Assembly: GCA_016342495.1 (NCBI GenBank)
Contig: JAEIOG010000030.1
Span: forward strand, 1-49,250
Direction: 5' to 3'
DNA: 49,250 nt
Source of the DNA: Phycisphaerae bacterium
GTDB taxonomy: Bacteria > Planctomycetota > Phycisphaerae > Sedimentisphaerales > SM23-30
The notes beneath the pieces were generated by a model. That model saw only the letters and a list, made by a program, of their open reading frames with translations, ran no database searches and was not told the DNA's origin. The first letter of the stretch is position 1. The number at the start of each line of letters is the position of its first letter. The translations under genes were made by a program, and so were the position numbers. Positions 485 through 3,150 of the stretch are shown piece after piece.

Positions 485-1939
485 ATGAGATTGTTGACAG
501 TAAAGCTGTTGGCGGCAATAGTGGTATTTGCCTTTTGTGCATTGCCGGTATTTGCTGGCTCAGTTGACAGCCAAACTTTCCAGCCGGAGAAAATTTCTGC
601 TTTTGATGCTGATATACCGGCTAATGTTAAAGGTTATATAATGCGGGGGCAGTATTCCCAAACCCAGCAACCTGGAAACGCCAAAGACAAGGATGTCAAA
701 GCCTATCCTGAAATTAAATCCGATAAAGCGATTTTTGGCTTTGTTATTCTAAATGCCAAAAAATGTTCTTATGTCATTGATGATACTCAAGGTAAAGGCT
801 ATGACAAATTAATTATTGATATTAATGCTGACCAGGATTTGACTAATGACCCGGTCCTGAAGTTGGATAAAAAATCACCCAGAGCAAAAGATTCAGCTCC
901 AGGCAGTATCCATTTTAAGCCATTTAAGCTTAAAGCTGATGGTTATGAAATTTCATTTTCAGCTAGTGCAGTGCCAGTTCCTGGCCGCGATTTGGGAACC
1001 ATCGATACTAATGCCCCAAAATCCTATAGCCTTATCCTGGTTTGTCAGGATGCGTATAAAGGTAATGTTTTAGTGAATGGTAAAAAAATTGACGTTTTTT
1101 ATACGCAAATTGGCAGTATGTCTGACTCCTTTTCTGGTTATTCGACTGCTCTTTTTATGTCGCCAGAATATGATTTCCAGCGTCTTAGTGGCAGAATGAT
1201 TCTGGATGGCAAATTTCTGGATTTTAAATTATCATCTGCTGGCGATAAACTTACAGTTGATACTTATAATGGCCCGATGGGACAATTGAAATTCAGTTTT
1301 GATGATAAAACTCCCAAAGTCAATTATATGACTATTAATTGCCAGGACGGCAAATCTATAAGAATCAAGCCTGAAATGTTCAAAAATAATTTTCTTGAAC
1401 TTCCTGTTGGGCAATATTTAATCAGTAGTGTTGGTATTAATCTCGATCATTATCAATTCGGCATGACCCATATCGGGCAAAGGGAACCAAATTCTACAAT
1501 TATCGCAGATAAACCATTGATAGTTGATCTTAAAAAAACCATGACAGTTGCTTTTGCTTTACCTAAAGAAGATGTTATTAATTTAAAGGCAAAAGAGTTT
1601 GATGTTAAAGTCAGTGCATATTTCTTTTCTCCAGAACTTTCCATGAGGCTTTCTGGTATTCGTGACCTTAGTAAGCTTGAACGCGAAATAAAAATGTCTA
1701 ACGGTCAAATGTATAAGGTTTATAACACCTTGCAGCCTGAGGTCAAAATTACCGATACTTCTGGCAAGGTCATTGCTCAGGGCCAAATGCCCTTTGGCTG
1801 AGGTGGCACCTGTGGCTACACGTGGCGTGTAGCAGAAGACCTCAATGCTTCTGGCAAGACTTTCACTATTGAAGCACTATATGACACTAAGGGTGTTATG
1901 GGAGTGATTTCTGGCAAGAAGACCATAACAGTCAAATAA
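485..1939 (+). CDS. Secreted protein with in-frame TGA; candidate selenoprotein
   Basis: This is an exported protein of unknown function. The ATG at 485 is chosen because AAAGGAG lies just ahead of it and a signal peptide follows (MRLLTVKLLAAIVVFAFCA, then LPVFAG). An earlier in-frame start at 419 has no such support. The body is rich in predicted beta strands with no domain I recognise. The frame meets TGA at 1799-1801 (codon 439) and continues for 45 sense codons to TAA at 1937-1939. The junction reads QMPFG-U-GGTCGYTWRV, putting the TGA residue four before a Cys. The distal part keeps a secreted beta-strand character (KTFTIEALYD, KKTITVK). A SECIS-like hairpin begins at the TGA itself. Selenocysteine insertion is the favoured reading. 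Alternatives are a recent nonsense mutation, or a functional 438-residue protein ending at the TGA. Confidence 0.6.
1799..1844 (+). promoter_or_regulatory. Candidate bacterial SECIS element
   Basis: The sequence can fold into a two-part stem-loop. Bases 1799-1804 (TGAGGT, including the TGA codon) pair perfectly with 1839-1844 (ACCTCA). An upper stem of 8 perfect pairs (GCTACACG 1815-1822 with CGTGTAGC 1826-1833) closes a TGG loop at 1823-1825. The upper stem starts 13 bases after the TGA and the loop 21 bases after it. Known bacterial SECIS elements have a stem just downstream of UGA, a small apical loop with an early G, and a loop 16-37 bases away; all three are met here. The assignment is by structure only. 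Confidence 0.6.
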
Positions 1940-2751: not shown

Positions 2752-3150
2752 ATGCGATTAGACCACATAGCAATATGGACCAATGATCTGGAATGTTTGC
2801 GCAACTATTATGTCAAGTTTTTTAATGGCGTTTCCAACGAAAAATATACCAATGAGGAAAAAGAGTTTCATAGCTATTTTATCTCTTTTGATTCAGGCGC
2901 GCGGCTGGAAATTATGACTATGCCAACCGTGTCTTCTAATCTAAATGATACGAAAGAACATCAGCACACTGGCCTGATTCATTTAGCTTTTGAGCTGGAT
3001 TGTGTTGCTGATGTTGATGCAAAAGCAAAGGTATTAATCGAAGCGGGTTTTGAAATTCTGGATGGGCCGAGAATTACCGGTGATGGCTATTATGAATTTG
3101 TGACTCTGGACCCGGATAATAATCGGGTAGAAGTTACTGCATTGCCATAA
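2752..3150 (+). CDS. VOC (glyoxalase I/bleomycin resistance fold) family protein
   Basis: This 132-residue protein consists of one vicinal-oxygen-chelate domain pair. It opens with LDHIAIWTNDLE and ends with FVTLDPDNNRVEV. Likely metal ligands in the usual four positions are His5, Glu53 (RLEIM), His77 (LIHLAF) and Glu127 (RVEVT). Lactoylglutathione lyase is the archetype, but the length and sequence fit the broad YwkD-like group whose substrates are often unknown. The start codon abuts the stop of the zinc-ribbon gene. Without structural or enzymatic data the substrate should not be named. Confidence 0.8.
   Translation: MRLDHIAIWTNDLECLRNYYVKFFNGVSNEKYTNEEKEFHSYFISFDSGARLEIMTMPTVSSNLNDTKEHQHTGLIHLAFELDCVADVDAKAKVLIEAGFEILDGPRITGDGYYEFVTLDPDNNRVEVTALP

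Follow-up and report, generated by a model that had tools for sequence, protein, structure and literature searches.

Evidence for an apparently undescribed family of planctomycete selenoproteins with a predicted Ig/macroglobulin-like domain

A review of May 2026 lists 119 families and subfamilies of prokaryotic selenoproteins (PMC13188914, Table 1). These have in common an in-frame UGA, a hairpin of the bSECIS type, the machinery for selenocysteine (Sec) insertion and frequently a nearby Cys, and their known folds are mostly thioredoxin-like or those of metalloenzymes. In the published bSECIS model the loop has 3-9 nt with a G in its first two positions, the stem has 4-16 bp, the spacing is 16-37 nt and the minimum free energy is -7.5 or lower (PMC13188914). 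The authors of deep-Sep state that for every known selenoprotein there is by now a Cys homologue, and that their own method may filter out selenoproteins that have none (PMC12013277). The glycine reductase selenoprotein A (GrdA) was long believed to lack Cys homologues, but these have since been reported (PMC12013277).

We have analyzed a gene of a Phycisphaerae bacterium, using a stretch of DNA of 49,250 nucleotides (the window) and the genome from which it comes. The gene resembles the catalogued families in its in-frame UGA, its hairpin, the Sec machinery of its genome and a Cys close to the UGA. In contrast to them, its Sec would lie on an Ig-like domain of an exported protein, and whereas the catalogued families have Cys homologues (PMC12013277), the tally that gave 98 members with TGA contained no member with Cys. 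The motif FG-U-GGTC, or more generally FG-U-GG-x-C (UxxxC), is absent from the 119 families (PMC13188914). The GUxG motif of hypothetical protein DG (NF049953) is formally compatible with G-U-G-G, but DG comes from Desulfosediminicola and has many Cys homologues (PMC12013277), and no NCBIfam model matches the planctomycete family. GrdA was likewise thought to be Cys-less, but it is a cytoplasmic CxxU enzyme subunit of unrelated sequence.

Six full-length and 35 domain members gave no match over the curated cut-off in Pfam or in NCBIfam release 20, and an Rfam scan matched no family. A search of the literature on Phycisphaerae selenoproteins found no paper; a member may have been listed earlier in supplements. 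An earlier note on this DNA, made from its letters alone, had named no family of such a form, and the catalogue, NCBIfam, Pfam and the literature turned up none either. This is apparently a large selenoprotein family of planctomycetes that had not been described before. A filtering of Cys-less families by deep-Sep would explain why it was missed.

The reading frame and its hairpin

The gene occupies positions 485-1939 of the forward strand, as do all features given below by position in the window. It begins with an ATG at 485, preceded by the Shine-Dalgarno-like sequence AAAGGAG (474-480), both read directly from the sequence, and encodes 484 residues including Sec439, with homologues that span the TGA. 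The coordinates were re-read and agree with the earlier note: there is a single in-frame TGA at codon 439 (1799-1801), followed by 45 sense codons and the stop codon TAA at 1937-1939. In this composition a frame would stay open over 45 codons by chance in about 4% of cases. The proposed pairing of Sec439 with a Cys was correct as to proximity but not as to spacing, since three residues lie between 439 and Cys443 (1811-1813), giving UxxxC. A terminator had also been placed after the TAA. A hairpin of 11 pairs is indeed present at 1951-1976, but it is a weak candidate because such matches are common by chance (two found against 1.3 expected). Further downstream lie genes for a small membrane protein with weak likeness to SWEET/PQ-loop proteins (2050-2343), a double zinc-ribbon protein of the TFIIB type (2365-2751) and a glyoxalase-fold protein (2752-3150).

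Folding the 52 nt that start at the TGA reproduced the RNA structure proposed in the earlier note, with a free energy of -19.4 kcal/mol (z = -1.7). The lower stem has six pairs, which include the TGA. In the upper stem-loop (1815-1833) nucleotides 1815-1822 pair with 1826-1833, forming eight pairs around a UGG loop (1823-1825) that lies 21 nt past the TGA and doubles as the codon of Trp447. In stem length, loop, spacing and energy this hairpin fits the bSECIS model. With the published geometry, an uninterrupted stem of equal or greater length is found at 57 of the 2164 TGA triplets in the window. The hairpin of a single sequence is thus only modest evidence for Sec and is not decisive alone.

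Comparison of relatives is decisive where the lone hairpin is not. Pairing in the upper stem reaches 94.8% over 36 distinct gap-free sequences, picked to hold a common register. There are 27 double-change cells in this stem, against 6.1 ± 1.8 in shuffled alignments and with none of 500 shuffles as high, and the covariation score is 0.346, compared with at most 0.098 for controls in which the register was slid. The same dependence can be read in the codons. Where the Ser before the Trp is TCG, the Arg after it is CGA or CGG in 26 of 26 members with a CGN Arg; where the residue before is Thr ACG, the Arg is CGT in 13 of 13 members. The choice of Arg codon therefore tracks the Ser or Thr codon at a silent position, and this cannot be explained by selection on the protein. 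A few divergent members (for example L056 and L067) are unpaired in the common register, and by eye a stem in a shifted register is possible. The relatives mostly form four or five of eight pairs in the lower stem, which thus shows no clear conservation. The suggestion of a SelB-type element is thus borne out for the upper stem but not for the lower.

Conservation of the UGA and the machinery to decode it

Residues 1-438, used as the query of a first homology search, matched two paralogues in the same genome and further homologues from three relatives. Each of these five continues beyond a TGA at the same codon, with the motif MPFG-U-[GA]GTCG[YF][TS]WR[VI]. The genomes of 84,980 species were then scanned with a DNA pattern in which this codon could be TGA, TGC, TGT or TGG. 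It found 24 stretches, of which 22 are labelled as Planctomycetota lineages, many of them Phycisphaerae, with TGA members. The other two (L044 and L047), which bear Cys, were rejected, being chance frames on contigs of actinobacteria that show no homology across the domain.

When the source genome was searched with a C-terminal domain profile (alignment A2), seven copies were found, the window's own and six more, each with one TGA. Among sampled genomes of the phylum the profile matches 47 of 392 (about 12%; E ≤ 0.01), and among those of the class it matches 59 of 397 (about 15%; E ≤ 1e-4), there with up to 11 copies per genome. In a tally at the codon level over the fetched Planctomycetota loci, TGA was counted in 98 distinct members and Cys in none; nor was Trp found at this codon among the relatives tallied there. 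Cys forms were sought by profile and loci tally in Planctomycetota and by the one DNA pattern in other phyla. The prediction that homologues would extend across the TGA thus held at the same codon, but the Cys or Trp alternatives that it envisaged are absent and essentially all members have Sec.

Four aligned relatives lack the TGA, having Gly GGA (L148, G667:C71), Thr ACC (L162), an insertion (L088, G108:C186) or a deletion (L132) in its place. In view of these losses Sec would seem dispensable in some copies. In L088, L148 and L162 the domain is otherwise well conserved, and none of the three has changed to Cys.

Other observations concern the diversity of the family. Five members (L124, L125, L126, L127 and L130) form a subfamily of about 180-230 residues with the sequence YG-U-GGGGWASV, in which Sec has no Cys at +4; their hairpin has a GGU loop (GGGCUUC-GGU-GAAGCCC). 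The source genome contains three tandem Sec-domain genes of a divergent EYG/EFG-U-GG type (L139:977-4531, contig G000:C26), and elsewhere in it three tandem pilin-like genes (RAFTLIELLVVISIIALLVSILMPALSKAR; L141:2388-5412, contig G000:C217) adjoin another Sec-domain gene. A tblastn search against plasmids gave no match.

The sources of TGA members include chromosome-level records (L046, L049), which makes an assembly error very unlikely. Among the three closest copies of the same genome, most differences past the TGA are at the third position of a codon (11/6/26, 10/11/24 and 9/8/23 for the first, second and third positions). It is scarcely conceivable that the TGA is an ordinary stop, a pseudogene lesion or a sequencing error followed by a frame open by chance: the chance of such an open stretch and the frequency of comparable stems would allow it, but an origin by chance or error is already refuted by a TGA that 98 distinct members in many genomes have kept, by a protein conserved beyond it and by silent covariation in the hairpin.

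Is the organism equipped to read this codon as Sec? Its genome assembly (5.4 Mb, 221 contigs, 95% complete) contains selB (L001), a tRNA-Sec with anticodon UCA (L009, 73.6 bits), selA (L024), which is on a different contig from the window's gene, and two selD genes (L025 and L026, on contigs G000:C10 and G000:C205). The search for the four sel genes that had been proposed as a check therefore found every one, and together they equip the organism to decode UGA as Sec. One of the selD genes (L026) likewise has a TGA within its reading frame, ...YAPCAG-U-VGKL..., as in SelD genes of the Sec type.

Across the phylum, selA was detected in 36 of the 40 genomes in which a domain match bears the TGA, compared with 242 of 392 overall (Fisher p = 3e-5, phylogeny being ignored). 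Among the four positive genomes in which selA was not detected, one (G341) has a strong tRNA-Sec and the other three are incomplete or weakly matched. In at least seven genomes (G070, G077, G089, G183, G246, G336 and G363) a member is found no more than about 2 kb from selA. In G183 a Sec-protein is followed by SelD (with a fused AhpD-like CMD domain), SelA and SelB, and in G070 a member sits between SelD and SelA. Most copies, including the window's, are not near selA. SelD proteins with a C-terminal AhpD-like (CMD) domain and a Cys-rich N-terminus were seen in the sel clusters of two planctomycetes (L138:3950-5551 and L134:8926-10545).

Even in Sec genes the UGA often causes partial termination, and a form of 438 residues may thus exist alongside the full-length protein. 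This leaves some room for a reading in which the UGA is read through or recoded otherwise, for example as Trp or Cys by near-cognate suppression, so that one gene gives two products. We consider this very improbable. The genome has the full Sec machinery, the family is enriched with selA and occurs in neighborhoods that hold selA, selD and selB, a hairpin of bSECIS type is present, and Trp or Cys is found at the codon in no relative tallied. Moreover, 17 of 50 members end with TGA as their last codon, so the code has not been reassigned.

The reading that the gene encodes a true selenoprotein, with Sec at UGA 439, is almost certainly correct. The sel genes, the TGA at the same codon in homologues and the covariation of the upper stem all support what had been put forward as a candidate; while the Sec machinery, the conservation of the UGA and the covariation in the hairpin are observed, we infer from them the insertion of Sec itself. 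In the mechanism we propose, SelA would charge tRNA-Sec(UCA) with selenocysteine, SelB would bind the hairpin that begins 13 nt past the UGA, and the ribosome would decode UGA 439 as Sec and proceed to the TAA. The product would then be exported, as suggested by its signal peptide.

Predicted architecture and possible roles of the Sec domain

The protein begins with a probable signal peptide (MRLLTVKLLAAIVVFAFCALPVFA; 485-556), identified by reading the sequence; its relatives start alike, and some have a lipobox at the N-terminus. It is probably exported or lipid-anchored. A beta-rich N-terminal part follows (554-1531), and no clear fold match was found for the N-terminal 322 residues. The AlphaFold2 model is all-beta, with a pLDDT of 86 and a pTM of 0.80. 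Structural comparison of model residues 327-461 using VIA-align gave, in the rows listed, Z scores of 8.3-10.1 to macroglobulin and other Ig-like domains, the best having Z of 9-10 and an rmsd of 2.1-2.8 Å over 86-104 residues with 7-19% identity. The C-terminal domain (1532-1936) is therefore predicted to be Ig/macroglobulin-like, and in the model Sec439 and Cys443 sit in a loop joining two strands.

At the sequence level, Pfam MG2 (PF01835) matched one relative among 23 members with E = 0.0074, and a search of PDB sequences with the domain profile gave only weak matches to Der p 2 (E ≥ 0.35). Although the predicted fold is that of macroglobulin (MG2/MG3) and other Ig-like domains, identity to these is low and no Sec is known in them. 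So common a fold gives no clue to function. In relatives the Sec domain is joined to varied parts (by eye, L090 has what resemble ankyrin repeats and L095 a hydrophobic tail), and it thus behaves as a C-terminal module. The family would then consist of extracytoplasmic proteins of planctomycetes whose common part is this Ig/macroglobulin-like domain with a [FY]G-U-GG-x-C loop.

What the Sec does can be suggested only tentatively. We favor an exposed selenolate that would carry out soft-metal or redox reactions at the cell surface, in most members together with the Cys at +4. This Cys is present in 82 of the 98 members and missing in 10, which counts against a simple selenenylsulphide mechanism; a selenenylsulphide could form in most members but is not what the whole family shares. 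The lack of Cys forms suggests that it is selenium itself that matters.

The chief rival, on account of the linkage to selA and selD, is that Sec serves selenium handling (storage, sensing or delivery) by an exported or lipid-anchored protein, rather than general redox or metal chemistry. The selA neighbors in at least seven genomes, the orders Sec-protein-SelD-SelA-SelB and SelD-member-SelA (seen once each) and the up to 11 copies per genome would all accord with such a role, and the absence of Cys replacements would be expected of it. Against this, most copies lie away from selA, and a selenoprotein gene whose function is unrelated may merely lie near the machinery on which its product depends. 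We regard selenium handling as an unlikely explanation.

Taken more broadly, the data may describe a Sec-only superfamily of surface proteins, with an Ig/macroglobulin-like domain in which selenium cannot be replaced by sulphur, amplified in Phycisphaerae to between 7 and 11 copies in a genome and linked by operon with selA, selD or selB in several genomes, that would act in extracytoplasmic selenium handling or in selenolate-specific chemistry. We offer this as a tentative picture. Since homology-based finders look for Cys/TGA pairs or for known families, a family without Cys forms is invisible to them, and its genes would be annotated as truncated at the TGA. The family would put Sec on an Ig-like domain outside the cytoplasm, and it suggests that the selenoproteomes of planctomycetes are larger than counted so far. 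A general question also becomes open to testing, namely which chemistry needs selenium so strictly that sulphur is no substitute.
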